In this document: in pieces, positions 39,901 through 45,414 of the stretch
Layout of the letters: the number at the start of each line of letters is the position of its first letter
Numbering within the stretch: position 1 is the first letter of the stretch
Assembly (NCBI RefSeq): GCF_024380015.1
Contig: NZ_CP101508.1
Coordinates: 744,001 to 808,000, forward strand
Length of the DNA: 64,000 nucleotides
Source: Photobacterium atrarenae
GTDB taxonomy: Bacteria; Pseudomonadota; Gammaproteobacteria; Enterobacterales; Vibrionaceae
Direction of reading: 5' to 3'
Made by a program: the position numbers and the translations under genes
Notes under the pieces: model-generated
Seen by the model: the letters and a program-made list of their open reading frames with translations, nothing else
Told to the model about the DNA's origin: nothing
The model's database searches: none

Positions 39901-40092
39901 ATTGCGGTCGGGACCGTGGTGTTCTTCGGCATGGCCTTTGCCACCTTGGTGACCCTGGTGGTGATCCCGGCGATGTACCGCCTGATGTCGGCCGGGACCC
40001 ATTCCCCGGGTTATGTGGCTGAGCAACTGGAGAAAGCACTGCACCTGGACAGGAACCAATCGCCTCAGGCAAGCCCGGACGCACTGGGTTAA
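36964..40092 (+). CDS. RND efflux transporter permease (HAE-1-like)
   Basis: A 1042-residue proton-driven resistance-nodulation-division pump with twelve spans in the usual 1+5+1+5 arrangement and two large periplasmic loops (~30-335 and ~555-855). The proton-relay aspartates are Asp401-Asp402 in GLVVDDAIVVVEN. Conserved SVKRPVVAVVLSLLLCIFG opens the protein, and MLIGMVTKNGILIVEFANQ is in span 10. The two-gene adaptor-pump form without an outer-membrane gene resembles VexEF- or VexGH-type systems of Vibrio, but no specific name is warranted. Drug or bile-salt efflux is inferred. A strong terminator follows. Confidence 0.94.
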   Translation: MWLSDVSVKRPVVAVVLSLLLCIFGMVSFNKLSVREMPDVENPVISVSTRYTGASASIMESRVTTVLEDQLSGISGIERITSTTRNGSSRISIEFEMGWDLTEGVSDVRDAVSRARRSLPDEANEPVVSKDNGSGEVAVYVNLISSVMDRSQLTDYAERVLVDRFNLINGISSVDLYGALYRVMYIKLKPDQMAGRGVTTKDIVNALNDENVELPGGVVRNDTTTMSVRTARLYRNADDFRYLTVRKAADGTPIYLKDVAEVAIGAQNENATFKNNGVANLSLGMVTMTDANPLDVADAVYQEVERMQRFLPEGTSLYVDYDSTVFIDRSIQEVYSTLMITGALVVLVLYIFIGQARATLIPAITVPVSLISAFMVAYFLGFSINLLTLMALILAIGLVVDDAIVVVENIYHHIERGEPPLLAAFKGTREVGFAVVATTAVLVMVFLPISFMDGMVGPLFTEFAVLLAFAVIFSSLVALTLSPVLGSKLLKANVKPSRFNLAVDRFFARLEAGYRTWVSAAVRYRYGAPLIVLAFVGLSAWMMQSVPSQLTPQEDRGVIFAFVKGAEGTSYNRMVGNVEEVERRLLPMVGNGVIKSLSIQTPAFGGRASDQTGFVIMPLENWEKRSVSAEEALGEVRQALQGIPDIRVWAFMPGFGGGSSEPVQFVLNGADYQELFHWASQLQSLAEESPMMEGADLDYAETTPELVVSVNRQRAAELGIPVADIAETLEIMLGGRSETTFVDRGEEYDVYLRGDENSFNNATDLSQIYVRTNAGQLITLESVASVEEVASAQRLSHNRKQKSITLSANLMPGYTLGEALDYLDEQALDMLPSDIVIDYAGESKDYRENQSSILLVFGLALLVAYLVLAAQFESFINPMVVMLTVPMGAFGGLAGMLLLDQSMNIYSQIGMIMLIGMVTKNGILIVEFANQLRDKGVAFEQAIVDAAERRLRPILMTAFTTLFGSVPLILSSGAGAESRIAVGTVVFFGMAFATLVTLVVIPAMYRLMSAGTHSPGYVAEQLEKALHLDRNQSPQASPDALG

Positions 40093-40117
40093 CAAGTCAC
40101 TTCCGTATCGATGAATG

Positions 40118-40143
40118 AAAAGCCGTCCGTGTGACGGCTTTTT
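40118..40143 (+). terminator. intrinsic terminator of the RND operon
   Basis: AAAAGCCGTC / GACGGCTTTTT stem-loop with a CGTGT loop, 26 bases past the pump stop. It has five T at the end. Confidence 0.88.
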
Positions 40144-40576
40144 GACGTTTGTTCCATGCGCAAGTTCAGCGCTGAATTATTTTATCGATTGTGTTTCTCG
40201 GAATTTATTCCTTATTTATTCGTTTTAAGCTGTTTTGTTTTTCTGTGTTTCGCAATGGGTTCATCAGACTTTGAGAAGCATTTCTATGTACGCGATGTAT
40301 CAAATGGAGAAATGACAACTCGTCAAAAAGGCTATTCTGTGAATTCAATTGACGATGAATTTGAGGTGACCTGTAAGAGAGCGCCATCAATTTGAAAACA
40401 AATATTAATAATGAGGTTAATAATTAGGCTAACGTTTGCATATCTGTCTGAAGTGTGATCGAGTGCGCACATGTGTTGTTGAATATGAGATATTCACCCC
40501 ATAATATAAGTGGTTGATTCCAATAGTCTTGGAACCCTCCTTATCTTGTTTCTCATATATTGGCGTAAAAATAGCT
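40144..40576. other. AT-rich gap with one doubtful small ORF
   Basis: This 433-base stretch is clearly more AT-rich than its flanks, between the RND terminator and the envelope cluster. It should contain the promoter of that cluster. One ORF at 40156-40395 is described separately as doubtful. No RNA gene or repeat was recognised. Confidence 0.45.
40156..40395 (+). CDS. doubtful 79-residue ORF with a hydrophobic segment
   Basis: The predicted product has a hydrophobic stretch at about residues 14-34 (FSEFIPYLFVLSCFVFLCFAM region) and then a polar tail with KHFYVRDVSNGEMTTRQKGY. It could be a small single-span membrane protein. Against this, no ribosome site precedes the ATG, I recognise no family, and base composition is unlike the genes around it. 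It starts only 13 bases after the RND terminator. I would not be surprised if it is not translated. Confidence 0.2.
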   Translation: MRKFSAELFYRLCFSEFIPYLFVLSCFVFLCFAMGSSDFEKHFYVRDVSNGEMTTRQKGYSVNSIDDEFEVTCKRAPSI

Positions 40577-41326
40577 ATGCAAAGCGAAGAGTTGACGGTT
40601 GAGACGACACCAAACCTTTGGGTAAAAATGCAAAGTATTGCGTTTGCGGTTGTCGCCATTATGTTGTCACTGGGACAGTGGAATGACACCAAAGATGCGG
40701 TTGAAGTTATTTATGAATCTGTGATCACGAATTTCACCAATGAAATTGAGTATGAACAGCTTGAACAAATTAAAGTCGGCCAGACCCACGATTATATTCA
40801 ATCGCTGATTGGCGTAGCCCAGGCATCGAAACCGTCCAAAATTAATCCGGCCGTGAATTTCTTTTATTACGGCCAGGATAAGTACTTACTGACCATTGCG
40901 GTGAAAGCTGAGCGAGTGGTCGGCTACAGCGTGGTCGCCCTGACAGATAGTTTCTCTGCAGGAGTCCCGTATTCCGAACTGAGCTTGCTGGAAACGCCGA
41001 TGAGCCGCCAGGTGACGGAGTTTGAACGCTACTTCACCGACTTTGGCAACCTCGACTATTATGCCGAGTCTCATACTCTGGGGCGCAATGCCATGTTTTA
41101 TAACCTGCTGCTGGCTACGGTTGATTACGGCCAGATGGCCCCACCGGCACAGCAGGCGATTCAATCCCTCAATCGTCAACTGAATATGGGTGCAGAGGTA
41201 CAAGCCACTGATTTACAGCCGCTGCGACAGCAAACGCCCAATGCTTTTGCGCTGTCTGAAGTCGGACCGGAGATCATGGCTGAAGCACTGCTGACCCAGT
41301 TCGAGTTCACCGCCTTTTTTCGTTAA
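40577..41326 (+). CDS. uncharacterised membrane-anchored protein at the head of the envelope cluster
   Basis: A protein of about 249 residues with one N-terminal hydrophobic span (~18-34, MQSIAFAVVAIMLSLGQW) and a long soluble part, probably periplasmic. The segment GQWNDTKDAVEVIYESV followed by IKVGQTHDYIQSLIG resembles, from memory, proteins labelled ETEC_3214-domain; this is a weak recollection. I see no catalytic motif. The start at 40577 (MQSEELTVETT) is preferred over an upstream in-frame ATG because the extra 21 residues look non-coding. It ends 16 bases before the first lipoprotein gene, so it is probably in its operon. The function is unknown. Confidence 0.6.
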   Translation: MQSEELTVETTPNLWVKMQSIAFAVVAIMLSLGQWNDTKDAVEVIYESVITNFTNEIEYEQLEQIKVGQTHDYIQSLIGVAQASKPSKINPAVNFFYYGQDKYLLTIAVKAERVVGYSVVALTDSFSAGVPYSELSLLETPMSRQVTEFERYFTDFGNLDYYAESHTLGRNAMFYNLLLATVDYGQMAPPAQQAIQSLNRQLNMGAEVQATDLQPLRQQTPNAFALSEVGPEIMAEALLTQFEFTAFFR

Positions 41327-41342
41327 TTAACGCGAGTCGATC

Positions 41343-42317
41343 ATGAAAATGAAAGCCATCCTGGCGCTGTCAGGCGCCTTGATGTTGTCTGCATGCCAGT
41401 CAACATCAACGCCTGAGTGGGTGCTTACACCAACTCAGGAAACGAATCAGCAACTCTATGCGGTAGGCCATGGGGGGAGTCTGTCGGCAGCTCAGCGGAT
41501 GGCCATGAGTCAGCTCAATGAGCGGCTATGGACTCAGGTTGAATCCTCCGGTTATCAACGCCAGGTACTACGTGAGCTGAATGGCGATGAGAACTTCCAG
41601 TCCATCAATGACTCCCGGGTCAATGTCAAAACGGCGCCTGTGGTGTTGACCGGTGTGGACTATCCCCGCCAGCAGCAGGTCGACGGGATCTACTATGTTG
41701 AAGCAACTATCAACAAAGCGACCGTGAAGACGCAACTGCAACGGGAGCTGACTCAGACAGCAGAAGATGTCAAAACGGCCTTGCTCAGCCGCGACCATGC
41801 CGATCCGCTGCTGTGGTGGCTCAAGCACAGGGATGTACAAGCGGTGAAAGATAAAGTTCTGACCCGGCAGGCGATGTTGCTGGCCGTCAGTGACGGTGTT
41901 GCCCAGGCCCATCCGGTGACCGAGCAGGTGATTGCGCTGGAGCGCACCCTGCAGGCCGTGAAAAATCAGCTTCAGTTTAAGGTGGTGGCCCCAAAAGGGG
42001 ATCGCTGGATGAAAGGGTTTGTCGAGCAGCACCTGGCCGCGGAGCACATTGCCACGGGCTCCAGCACCAGCAAAGCGACTCATATCCTCAACCTGGATAC
42101 CGAGTGGCGTCAGAGCAAAGTGGGTGATGCATATATTTCAACGGTTATTGCTGATTTGACGATTCAAAACAAACGCGGGAAAACAACCGCAAATCGTGAA
42201 GTGATTGCCAGCGGGAACTCTGTTTCTAATTACAAAGTATCTAAAGAAGGAGCCTCCCGTCATTTTTCCGCCCAAATGAGTGAACAAGGACTTTGGCACT
42301 TTTTGGGCGTTTTATAA
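41343..42317 (+). CDS. LPP20-like outer-membrane lipoprotein
   Basis: A 324-residue lipoprotein with lipobox LSAC (Cys18) followed by Gln-Ser, so outer-membrane sorting is expected. Residues ~37-125 (LYAVGHGGSLSAAQRMAMSQLNERLWTQVESSG and the following strands) resemble the LPP20/FlgP fold, in which a repeated-alanine helix packs on a sheet. A second domain at ~205-324 looks like the same kind of fold or a CsgG-like half (ATHILNLDTEWRQSK). LPP20-type proteins act in flagellar outer-membrane disks (FlgP) and other envelope assemblies. No enzyme motif is seen. It is the second gene of the cluster, with a 23-base gap to the next. Confidence 0.65.
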   Translation: MKMKAILALSGALMLSACQSTSTPEWVLTPTQETNQQLYAVGHGGSLSAAQRMAMSQLNERLWTQVESSGYQRQVLRELNGDENFQSINDSRVNVKTAPVVLTGVDYPRQQQVDGIYYVEATINKATVKTQLQRELTQTAEDVKTALLSRDHADPLLWWLKHRDVQAVKDKVLTRQAMLLAVSDGVAQAHPVTEQVIALERTLQAVKNQLQFKVVAPKGDRWMKGFVEQHLAAEHIATGSSTSKATHILNLDTEWRQSKVGDAYISTVIADLTIQNKRGKTTANREVIASGNSVSNYKVSKEGASRHFSAQMSEQGLWHFLGVL

Positions 42318-42340
42318 CACGCAATAATTGGATAAAGGTT

Positions 42341-43399
42341 ATGTCAAAAAAAGCATTATTAGCGGTCAGCATTGCTGCGTTGATGACAGGCTGTAAGAGC
42401 CTGCCAGATGCTCCGGAAGGGATCTGTCACGCTAGCACCGCTATTAATATTCCGCAAAGTGAAGTCAAGGTGGCGACTTCACAAGCGAAAAAAGCGATTG
42501 TACTTCCGGCTGATGTGGCCAGCGGGATTGATTATCCGCGTACCATGGCGAATGCCTTCCAGTATCGTCTGGAAAGTCAGGTGGATCAGTCCGGTGCCAA
42601 GCTGGTTGATCGTTCCCTGGCCGGCAAGCTGAAGCAGGAAATTAAGCTGGCTGAGCAAAGTGGCCGGATTAACACTTCCGGCGTGGCAATTGCCGATTAT
42701 GCGGTGCTGGCCGAAGTACGCTCATCGAACCTGAAGTATTCCTTCAGTGATGAGGAAACCAAAGTCAATGACGATGGTGAGCGTAAATACTATCCGGCCG
42801 AGTGTTCCTTTACCGCGTCTGTCGAAGGCATCGTGAAAGTCGTTGCGCTGCCGAGCATGGAAGTGGTCAAACGGATTGAAATCAGCGGTCGCGAAATGAG
42901 TACGTTTGAGCAGGATCGTCCGGATTCAGATTGTCCGATCTCGAATGGCCAGTACAAGCGCCTGGTTGAAGAAGCTGCGAAAAACGCGGTCAACCGCAAT
43001 GACGAGCTGCTGAACCAGTTCGCTCCGAGCGGTACGGTTGAAGAGCTGCGTCAGTGTGAAGAGTACGGCGCCATGGTTCGGGTCAACATGGGCTCAACGT
43101 TGGGGATCAAGCCAGAGCAAAAAGTTGAAATTACGACGGCTGAAAAAGTGCAGCTGGCCGACGGCACGGAAGTGGTTGAATATTATCCGGTTGGTGAAGG
43201 ACAGACCGCAGATGAAGATAACCGCCACGGCATCAAGCCGACCTATTCCTGGATCGGCGTTGACGAGAAGAACGTGATGAAAATCCAGCGCGGCGATCTG
43301 GTTGAAGCGCGCTTTGAAAGCGGCTGTAACGATGTCATTGAACCGTTCCGTACTATCTGTTGGGAAACATACGAAGCGTTCAGCAAAAAAGGCTCATAA
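42341..43399 (+). CDS. CsgG/LpoB-like lipoprotein
   Basis: A 352-residue lipoprotein with lipobox MTGC (Cys18). The ATG at 42341 is chosen because it places the lipobox correctly. Residues ~65-130 (YPRTMANAFQYRLESQVDQSGAKLVDR, then LKQEIKLAEQSGRINTSGVAIADYAVLAEV) follow the pattern of CsgG/LpoB-fold lipoproteins: an N-terminal helix, a VDR strand, an E-containing helix and an ADY(A/V)L strand. Such proteins form curli or flagellar outer-membrane rings or activate penicillin-binding proteins. A C-terminal region (~240-330) reads like an OB or SH3-type barrel (VRVNMGSTLGIKPEQKVEI). The placement beside LPP20-like genes supports a multi-lipoprotein complex. Confidence 0.62.
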   Translation: MSKKALLAVSIAALMTGCKSLPDAPEGICHASTAINIPQSEVKVATSQAKKAIVLPADVASGIDYPRTMANAFQYRLESQVDQSGAKLVDRSLAGKLKQEIKLAEQSGRINTSGVAIADYAVLAEVRSSNLKYSFSDEETKVNDDGERKYYPAECSFTASVEGIVKVVALPSMEVVKRIEISGREMSTFEQDRPDSDCPISNGQYKRLVEEAAKNAVNRNDELLNQFAPSGTVEELRQCEEYGAMVRVNMGSTLGIKPEQKVEITTAEKVQLADGTEVVEYYPVGEGQTADEDNRHGIKPTYSWIGVDEKNVMKIQRGDLVEARFESGCNDVIEPFRTICWETYEAFSKKGS

Positions 43400-43430
43400 T
43401 GGGCGGGTTCACCCCTAAACAAGTAGATAT

Positions 43431-44024
43431 ATGATGATGAAAAAAACATTGATGACCACCATGTTGGTCATGGGACTGGCAGGCTGTCAGTCGAACACGG
43501 TCAGCGACATTCAATCCATGGCGTGTTACTACCCGGATGCGATGCAGCACGAAGCGCCGAAATGGGTGTGTGATGTAATGCCGGATGACGTTGCGATTGG
43601 CAGCGTGGGCTACGCTAAGAAAAGTGCGGCCGGCATGAGCGTGATGCGCACTATTGCGACCAATGATGCCCGTAAGCGTCTGGCAGAGCAGTTTGAAACC
43701 AACGTCAATACCATGTTTAAACAAGCGATGACGGCTGAAGTGGTTTCGAGCAATGAATCTGTGACCGAAGAAGTGAATGAGCAGTTCCAGTCGGTAACAA
43801 AAAATGTCAGCAGCCGCACTCTGAGCAACAGCCGGGTGATTGTGTCAACCCGCAGTCCGGGTGGCGGCCTGTATACCTTAGTCGGCATGGATCAGGCGAC
43901 CTATGATCGTAACGTCGCGCTGGTGGTTGAAGCGGCGACTGATAAGGAATCTGGCCTTTGGAAGCAGTTTAACGACAAGAAAGCAGAAGAGAGTCTGCAA
44001 AAAGCATTGGATTCGATGCTTTAA
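43431..44024 (+). CDS. LPP20 family lipoprotein
   Basis: A 197-residue lipoprotein with lipobox LAGC (Cys19). The core, KKSAAGMSVMRTIATNDARKRLAEQFETNV, then strands ending RVIVSTRSPGGGLYTLVGMD, fits the LPP20 family well, in which an alanine-spaced helix precedes a beta sheet. Three in-frame ATGs (43431, 43434, 43437) are possible starts; the third gives the commonest form MKKTL. Helicobacter LPP20 and Vibrio FlgP are the named relatives; neither function can be assigned directly. It lies 31 bases after the CsgG-like gene and is followed by a hairpin terminator at 44041. Confidence 0.72.
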   Translation: MMMKKTLMTTMLVMGLAGCQSNTVSDIQSMACYYPDAMQHEAPKWVCDVMPDDVAIGSVGYAKKSAAGMSVMRTIATNDARKRLAEQFETNVNTMFKQAMTAEVVSSNESVTEEVNEQFQSVTKNVSSRTLSNSRVIVSTRSPGGGLYTLVGMDQATYDRNVALVVEAATDKESGLWKQFNDKKAEESLQKALDSML

Positions 44025-44040
44025 TCGTTCAACAAGATTG

Positions 44041-44066
44041 AGGGCTACGCGAGTAGCCCTTTTTAT
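44041..44066 (+). terminator. intrinsic terminator inside the envelope cluster
   Basis: AGGGCTAC / GTAGCCCT stem with GCGA loop and a short T-run, between the LPP20 gene and the lytic transglycosylase gene. The latter is then either read-through or separately promoted. Confidence 0.75.
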
Positions 44067-44085
44067 TTGAGAAAAGGAATAATGG

Positions 44086-45414
44086 ATGAAGCTATCACGA
44101 TTAGCCTGTTGTTGTGCCTTGCTGCTTGCTGCCCCGTTGCAAGCCAATAATGATCCGTTTGCCGAGCTGAGTTCTTCTGTCGCGGAAGTGAATAAGTCTC
44201 AAGCTGAGATCGATAAAGAATATGCACAGTTTGTCGCGGAACGCCTGGCTGAATATTCCCTGTGGCGCAAAGCGTACCTGGCCGAATATGATGCCTACCG
44301 GGCAGAAGTGATTGCCGAATGGGGAGAGGGGTTGCTCTCCGAGCCGCTGGTCACTGTGGACTATAGCGATGATAAAAGCACCCGGACTGTCGTTGATCTG
44401 GAGAACAATGAAGCTACGATTTCGGTTCTGGTGGATCAGAATACCACACCGGAACAAGCGGCTGAACAGGTGAAGCAGGCTGCGGCTGCGGTTGTGGCGA
44501 AAACCGGCTCGACGCTAGCAGAAGTTGTCGCTGAGCCGGGTCAGCTGCCGAATGGCAAAATTGCTGAAGCGGCGGTTGATTATTCTGAAGCTGCGGAAAA
44601 GTCGGCGAAGAAGGCTGTGATCGAACAAGCCCGAGCTCAGTTACAGGAGATCGATAAAGAGTCTGAAGCTGTGGTCGCCAAAATGCCGGGGATGCGACCG
44701 GAGATCGCCGAGTCAGTGGCCGTGAAGCAGAAAGAGCAACTGGTTGAAGAGACCAAAGCACGCCTGGCGAGCCTCGAAGCCACCTATGATGAGGCCCGGG
44801 AGAAAGCAGCGTCGCTAACCACCAAGAAAGTCGTGGAGTACCGGATCCAGTTACCGGCGAACGGTATTGGCAAGCGTGCCGCCAAATATGTCGGTTTCGC
44901 TGAGGCCGAGAGTGAGCGCTTTGATATTCCGGCGGCCCTGGTGATGGCGATTATGCACTCCGAGTCGAGCTTCAACCCCAAAGCCAAGTCGCCGATCCCG
45001 GCGTATGGCCTGATGCAGATTGTCCCGACCACTGCCGGTCATGATGTTAATGCCCGCATTCGTCAGAAAAATGAGCCGATGAAGCCTGCGGAGTTGTACA
45101 TCGCCGGTGTGAATGTGGAAACAGGCACAGCCTACCTCAATATTCTGGATAAGAGTTATCTCAAATCTATCACCAATGAGCAGAGCCGTCTTTACTGCAC
45201 TATTGCTGCGTATAACACCGGGGCCGGGAACGTGGCTAAAGCGTTCAACCCGGACGGATCGCGCAATATCCGCAAAGCCGCCAAGCTCATCAATCGCCTG
45301 ACGCCACAGCAGGTCTACGATAAGCTGATGGCTGATTTGCCTTATGATGAAACCAAAAACTACCTGAAGAAGGTCACCAGCCGGATTTCGCTGTACGAGC
45401 AGCACAGCGCTTAA
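44086..45414 (+). CDS. MltC-like lytic transglycosylase (SLT domain)
   Basis: A 442-residue exported lytic transglycosylase. The signal peptide is about residues 1-20 (LLLAAPLQA), with no lipobox, so unlike MltC it is probably soluble in the periplasm. Residues ~25-250 form a long charged, partly coiled-coil region with AEQVKQAAAAVVAKTGSTL. The catalytic SLT domain is at ~262-435, with Glu293 in IMHSESSFNP, then YGLMQIVPTTAGHD and IAAYNTGAGNVAKAF, closest in order to MltC. It cleaves peptidoglycan glycan strands to leave 1,6-anhydro ends. It follows three lipoprotein genes and may open the wall for their assembly, which is inference. Confidence 0.85.
   Translation: MKLSRLACCCALLLAAPLQANNDPFAELSSSVAEVNKSQAEIDKEYAQFVAERLAEYSLWRKAYLAEYDAYRAEVIAEWGEGLLSEPLVTVDYSDDKSTRTVVDLENNEATISVLVDQNTTPEQAAEQVKQAAAAVVAKTGSTLAEVVAEPGQLPNGKIAEAAVDYSEAAEKSAKKAVIEQARAQLQEIDKESEAVVAKMPGMRPEIAESVAVKQKEQLVEETKARLASLEATYDEAREKAASLTTKKVVEYRIQLPANGIGKRAAKYVGFAEAESERFDIPAALVMAIMHSESSFNPKAKSPIPAYGLMQIVPTTAGHDVNARIRQKNEPMKPAELYIAGVNVETGTAYLNILDKSYLKSITNEQSRLYCTIAAYNTGAGNVAKAFNPDGSRNIRKAAKLINRLTPQQVYDKLMADLPYDETKNYLKKVTSRISLYEQHSA

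Follow-up and report, generated by a model that had tools for sequence, protein, structure and literature searches.

The window analysed here is a stretch of 64,000 nucleotides (nt) of Photobacterium atrarenae, in which five open reading frames (ORFs), designated A to E and all lying on the + strand, span positions 40577-45414 (C1:784577-789414 in contig coordinates). The initial annotation had proposed an envelope cluster of five same-strand genes with short gaps, and this arrangement is borne out, the A-B, B-C, C-D and D-E gaps being 16, 23, 31 and 61 nt. The comparisons described below show that the five families constitute a true module, inherited together through rearrangements. The features of the Photobacterium module are the following (aa, amino acids):

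40577..41326, + strand: A, ETEC_3214-domain protein, 249 aa from ATG, N-terminal membrane helix at about residues 14-32
41343..42317, + strand: B, lipoprotein, 324 aa, LPP20 domain and a second domain without match
42341..43399, + strand: C, lipoprotein, 352 aa, with a middle domain (TolB-N/CsgG type) and a C-terminal domain both predicted to be FlgT-like
43431..44024, + strand: D, LPP20 lipoprotein, 197 aa
44040..44061, + strand: terminator-like hairpin in the D-E gap, 9-pair stem and T-run
44086..45414, + strand: E, MltC-like lytic transglycosylase, 442 aa, signal peptide, module-specific N-terminal region and C-terminal SLT domain

The five proteins

Protein A scores far above the curated cut-off of the NCBIfam family ETEC_3214 (NF043066; 165.5 vs 35 bits), and its predicted N-terminal membrane helix agrees with the single inner-membrane-anchored protein expected at this locus. 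The mechanical ORF of A begins earlier, at TTG, than the 249-aa reading from ATG. The periplasmic part is predicted to be BLIP/BamE-like, these being the nearest fold matches; the match is modest, with a predicted local distance difference test (pLDDT) score of 72.2 for the model.

The lipobox cysteine is invariant among the aligned members of the B (Cys18, n = 18), C (Cys18, n = 18) and D (n = 11) families, in accordance with the three lipoproteins initially annotated. By the Lol rule the residue following this cysteine tells the membrane to which a lipoprotein is sorted, and the Gln, Lys and Gln found at this position in the B, C and D proteins of the window therefore point to the outer membrane. 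B and D were judged by sequence, C being the one lipoprotein with a structure model. The proposal that two of the three are LPP20-like is upheld: D passes the Pfam LPP20 (PF02169) cut-off (30.2 vs 25.9 bits) and its profile matches the solved Lpp20 structure 5ok8 at 2.9e-4, while B, borderline by the same cut-off (24.5 bits in the protein scan, 28.1 in the genome search), gives an LPP20 match at E <= 0.1 in all 18 family members and a profile match to the solved 'LPP20 lipofamily protein' 4kzs at 1.8e-13. In both proteins about 35 residues, counted by eye from the sequence, separate the SHS2 helix from the second strand; PMC12222027 associates ring formation in the FlgP family with an insert at this place.

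Searches of Pfam, NCBIfam and the PDB gave no sequence match of weight for C, and none of its 18 family members matches LpoB (PF13036) or CsgG (PF03783) at E <= 0.1. Alignment of the C profile to the FlgT of the same genome by hhalign revealed no detectable kinship (probability 2.8%, E 0.016), and the B and C profiles have only the signal region in common. Kinship between C and any of FlgT, LpoB and CsgG was thus looked for at the sequence level and not found. The structure model of C (pLDDT 80.9), in contrast, ranks FlgT (3w1e, 2.8e-13) and a Vibrio LPHT ring chain (8z5n, 1.8e-12) as the top folds, with CsgG, PelC and TolB-type proteins also among the matches and CsgG weaker than FlgT. C is accordingly predicted to have a CsgG/FlgT-type fold, nearer to FlgT than to LpoB. 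Of the initial description of this protein as CsgG/LpoB-like, the fold class is retained, the model being FlgT/CsgG/TolB-like and not of an unrelated fold, while the LpoB part and any sequence match to LpoB or CsgG are not.

E contains an SLT domain (86.9 bits) and finds its best sequence matches in the PDB among MltC chains (3.1e-35), but stays below the cut-off of the MltC equivalog NF008670 (162.3 vs 375 bits). The SLT-motif pair Glu293-Ser294 (ES motif) is invariant across 19 aligned E proteins, Glu293 being presumably the catalytic residue. The alignment of these 19 proteins shows no conserved N-terminal lipobox cysteine, and the start of E is signal-peptide-like; by its sequence E is therefore a soluble periplasmic enzyme. 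Its N-terminal region is kept across the module E proteins, and a trace of Mltc_N in the family is weak (4 of 19 members at E <= 0.1). The annotation of E as an MltC-like transglycosylase thus stands as to the catalytic domain, although E is not a lipoprotein as MltC is. A second MltC-type match in the genome is a 384-aa frame (C1:432750-433280). In the Neptunicella-type loci L070 (11062-12471), L044 and L045 a papain-like protein of 469 aa, named by eye, is encoded directly after E; a docking region common to the N-terminal region of E and the middle of this protein was sought at these three loci, and the similarity was not significant (E 3.3-6.6).

Conservation, rearrangement and distribution of the module

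A scan of genome contigs with the D alignment (one peptide pattern) yielded 19 named loci in Shewanella, Vibrio, Aliivibrio, Photobacterium, Psychromonas and Neptunicella. The five-gene set is complete in 18 of them, in the orders BCDEA (9 loci), ABCDE (7) and ADEBC (2), and D directly precedes E in all 18. The nineteenth, L061 of Vibrio sp. 10N.261.45.E2, has the genes c20-c21-c22 in the place of C; its B occurs as two ORF pieces (525-1504), either a broken gene or an assembly error. Since the five families stay together through these rearrangements, the gene run is more than chance, and an explanation by chance neighbours was rejected.

In a survey of 197 genomes of the order, 96 gave a match to E, most of these being common MltC-type genes that aligned over no more than the SLT domain. 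Sixteen loci of the order have a long-E-like match, nine of them with all five genes, one with B-C-D-E, four with other mixes and two (L033, L034) with E alone. A occurs in 16 of the 197 genomes, of which 15 also have a module E: in 13 it lies in the same cluster and in two (G087, G144) elsewhere, none being recognised in G075. A strong D (E <= 1e-20, a count leaving out eight further genomes with weak D matches) was found in 13 genomes and always beside E, in G144 by its coordinates. Hypergeometric values over the 197 genomes are 5e-18 for A with E and 4e-16 for D beside E, with kinship ignored and with 19 E genomes counted by our own reading (the window's genome, the 16, G087 and G144). In the 369 genomes of the class ETEC_3214 was detected in three, that of the window and a further two, in each of which E lies next to A. 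The smallest kept version of the module is the pair A+E (L120, L124), including one at the window's own site in G209. Some loci represent the same genome twice (L063/L035, L064/L036, L068/L042, L070/L044).

Within the genus, D is present in 11 of 52 genomes and all five genes in six (the window's own, G240, G213, G228, G222 and G215), the other five D genomes having a variant cluster (G201) or D with two lipoprotein-like ORFs (G214, G246, G232, G233). The module is thus a patchy accessory trait residing at more than one site, and not part of the Vibrionaceae core. The conserved co-occurrence on which the initial annotation had staked its proposal holds as to the linkage of all five genes (18 of 19 loci), but not as a family-wide trait, and it extends to Shewanella, Psychromonas and Neptunicella. 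In the four genus genomes just mentioned a relative of D followed by two lipoprotein-like ORFs (295 and ~174 aa) occupies a common site (L115-L118), and this may be a further small LPP20 lipoprotein set.

In the window the module is flanked upstream by an RND pump gene, which ends at 40092 and is followed by a terminator-like hairpin at 40116-40144, and downstream by an rluF-like gene from 45620. The rluF site was matched in 49 of the 52 genus genomes, and among the 30 loci returned, to which the counts apply, rluF is preceded by E in four, by the end of the RND gene in 24 and by neither in two. This site is occupied by all five genes in three genomes (that of the window, G240 and G222) and by A and E alone in G209, while G231 and G207 have a bare site with less than 200 nt from RND to rluF; in G213, G228 and G215 the module is situated elsewhere. 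These counts are in favour of an accessory insertion. The RND gene has a GC content of ~0.58, which drops to 0.43 in A and the stretch immediately ahead of it; the remaining module is at 0.49-0.55.

In a tree of E (40 rows, several of them long; 10 of 37 inner branches unsupported, and deeper relations beyond its reach) the E of G209 falls among the rluF-site ABCDE copies (100/99), so this genome has probably lost B, C and D. The rluF-site ABCDE copies group with Shewanella and Psychromonas copies (97/96) and the BCDEA copy of P. indicum with an Aliivibrio copy (100/99). Gene order is hence tied more closely to the lineage of the gene than to the genus of the host, a pattern to be expected under horizontal spread.

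The place of C appears to be the exchangeable part of the module, other lipoproteins standing there in some loci. In one lineage type (L047, L049 and L051) it is taken by the CsgG-family protein c43 (3 of 3 over the cut-off) together with c42, which in the one copy scanned has an LPP20 trace below the cut-off; judged by its family match, c43 would preserve the fold class of C. L041, L043, L046, L050 and L061 have c20-c21-c22, no family exceeding its cut-off in the one copy scanned, and the assignment of c21 to LpoB was not significant (13.4 vs 22.3 bits). Genes similar to c21 also accompany B, D and E in L119 and L131, where no A is found nearby; these larger relatives of the module (L131 6891-14429, L119 908-9697) comprise c20/c21/c22-like genes, two periplasmic-looking ORFs, D, E and B.

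The D-E junction carries a feature that was missed in the first reading of the sequence. Among 28 D-E junctions surveyed, 23 have gaps of more than 20 nt, and 17 of these gaps contain a terminator-like hairpin vs 0.24 expected from 200 dinucleotide shuffles per gap; the rows include close kin (L065-L067, L063-L064, and the window with L110). At the same setting the control gaps of more than 20 nt (A-B, A-D, B-C and C-D), mostly shorter than the D-E gaps, gave no hairpin in 27 cases, and the E-A gaps gave one in 10. The stems differ between lineages, and it is therefore the feature rather than the sequence that is kept. The scan of a single region is weak by itself, with 11 terminator-like sites in the whole region vs 6.0 expected. 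Promoter-like sites for A or E showed no excess (three in the region vs 4.3 expected).

Two observations concern the surroundings of the module. Between the RND hairpin and A (40156-40395, + strand) there is an ORF of 79 aa that includes a hydrophobic stretch; it may be no gene, since tblastn against all loci collected at that stage gave no match beyond the window's own copies. Some edges of the module carry genes of GGDEF/EAL, DHH or thiolase-like type, as assigned by eye or by motif; these were rejected as a constant functional neighbour, representing local synteny or common families.

Possible function of the module

The initial annotation had suggested a trans-envelope assembly or a regulator of the cell wall, and from the composition of the module we too infer a trans-envelope assembly or a control of wall synthesis. 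The reading that we favour, at about an even chance, is an accessory trans-envelope assembly that is independent of the flagellum and has an enzyme of its own for cutting the wall. The ring, the binding and the function of this assembly are what we infer from the parts. B, C and D would lie on the periplasmic side of the outer membrane and assemble there into a collar or disk of the FlgT/FlgP kind; A, anchored in the inner membrane, would hold or restrain E through its BLIP/BamE-like periplasmic part; and E would make a local opening in the peptidoglycan to allow placement of the collar. Owing to the hairpin, E would be expressed less than the preceding genes, or as a separate unit, and the wall-cutter would thus stay scarcer than the lipoproteins. 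Our first guess is that the assembly serves as a structural collar coupling the outer membrane, the wall and the inner membrane. A more elaborate version, which we hold tentatively and rate at somewhat below an even chance, is a horizontally shared machine of H-ring fold in which E is captive to the BLIP-like A, the collar has an exchangeable part (C, c20-c21-c22 or c43-c42) and a transcription brake before E has evolved repeatedly.

The same genes could also be read as a regulator of wall growth, in which the lipoproteins extend across the wall and either activate penicillin-binding proteins (PBPs) or position them, in the manner of LpoA and LpoB, while E cuts ahead of the synthase. A lytic transglycosylase in company with the lipoproteins B, C and D would suit such a role, as would the middle domain of C, which is of the TolB-N type also present in LpoB. 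We nevertheless regard this explanation as unlikely: the absence of an LpoB match in 18 C family members is joined by the absence of a PBP gene in the module, C has a predicted FlgT-type C-terminal domain that LpoB is not known to possess, and the patchy presence of D in the genus argues against a core role of this kind. That the CsgG/FlgT-like lipoprotein forms an outer-membrane channel or collar for export of an unlinked substrate, with E clearing the wall beneath, is suggested by CsgG and PelC among the fold matches of the C model and by the replacement of C by CsgG-family proteins in three loci. No substrate or energising gene, however, is constant beside the module, and C fits CsgG less well than FlgT and has no CsgG sequence match, which makes a secretion pore distinctly unlikely.

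The least elaborate alternative is a small unit of enzyme control, in which A is an inner-membrane inhibitor or sensor for E, the lipoproteins report stress of the outer membrane or the wall, and no larger structure is built. It would account for A+E as the smallest kept pair, for the BLIP/BamE-like proteins as the nearest folds of A, and for the hairpin that sets E apart. Three lipoproteins, one of them FlgT-like, exceed the needs of a sensor, however; the fold match of A is modest, and E exists alone in L033 and L034, so that we consider this unit very improbable as the whole explanation. Whichever the function, the exchangeable C part and the hairpin before E offer direct experimental handles, and ETEC_3214-domain proteins and non-flagellar LPP20 lipoproteins of unknown function gain a testable setting together with a dedicated transglycosylase. 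If the collar reading is true, the module would show by what means a cell permits the wall to be cut locally for a structure that spans the envelope.

Comparison with known systems

The literature searched, by title and abstract start, yielded no description of such a cluster; to judge by their titles, the papers on LPP20 with lytic transglycosylase or on HP1454/HP1456/HP1457 concerned H. pylori, including its vesicles, and those on FlgT/FlgP/FlgO/LPP20 concerned flagella. The folds are known, while the combination, the reshuffling, the exchangeable part and the hairpin appear to be undescribed in that literature. A known anti-phage defence system was rejected as a candidate, none of the five proteins having a PADLOC match at E <= 0.01.

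A belongs to the same domain family as ETEC_3214 of E. coli H10407, which is CfaD-activated and whose function is given as unknown in PMC5554520. Unlike A, the H10407 gene (L126 30093-30830) is solitary within the 49 kb listed, and the domain can therefore be kept without the module; it lies amid insertion sequences, ~15 kb from type II secretion genes. The first 4000 bases of the module (A-D and part of E) had no blastn match in 20,395 records, and with the solitary H10407 gene this led us to reject a homologous cluster in E. coli. E resembles MltC in its SLT domain, its best PDB matches and the weak Mltc_N trace, but differs from it in the equivalog score and in the missing conserved lipobox. 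B and D resemble LPP20-family proteins of H. pylori, the matched structures 4kzs and 5ok8 being, as we take them, HP1454 and Lpp20/HP1456, both of one H. pylori gene cluster. The predicted middle domain of C shares its fold with TolB and with the CsgG/PelC/LpoB/TolB-N type of lipoproteins, while C matches none of these families by sequence, and no gene of the curli or Pel systems was recognised next to it.

The closest parallel is the flagellar H-ring of FlgO, FlgP and FlgT (3w1e, 8z5n). The middle and C-terminal domains of the C model align with FlgT, and B and D are LPP20 lipoproteins; PMC12222027 reports an SHS2-like fold for FlgP, Lpp20 and FlgT, and PMC6504787 describes an H-ring made of FlgT and FlgO, with which FlgP associates. 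The module differs from it in having its own transglycosylase and A, and C lacks the FlgT N-domain and any detectable FlgT sequence kinship. It lies, as initially proposed, outside any flagellar operon: the FlgT of the same genome is encoded at C1:2556627 with FlgO- and FlgP-like ORFs adjoining, ~1.77 Mb along the contig from the module, and a fragment of a flagellar operon was rejected because flgO, flgP and flgT are located there. Should the collar reading prove true, the flagellar H-ring would represent one application of a more general set of ring-forming parts.

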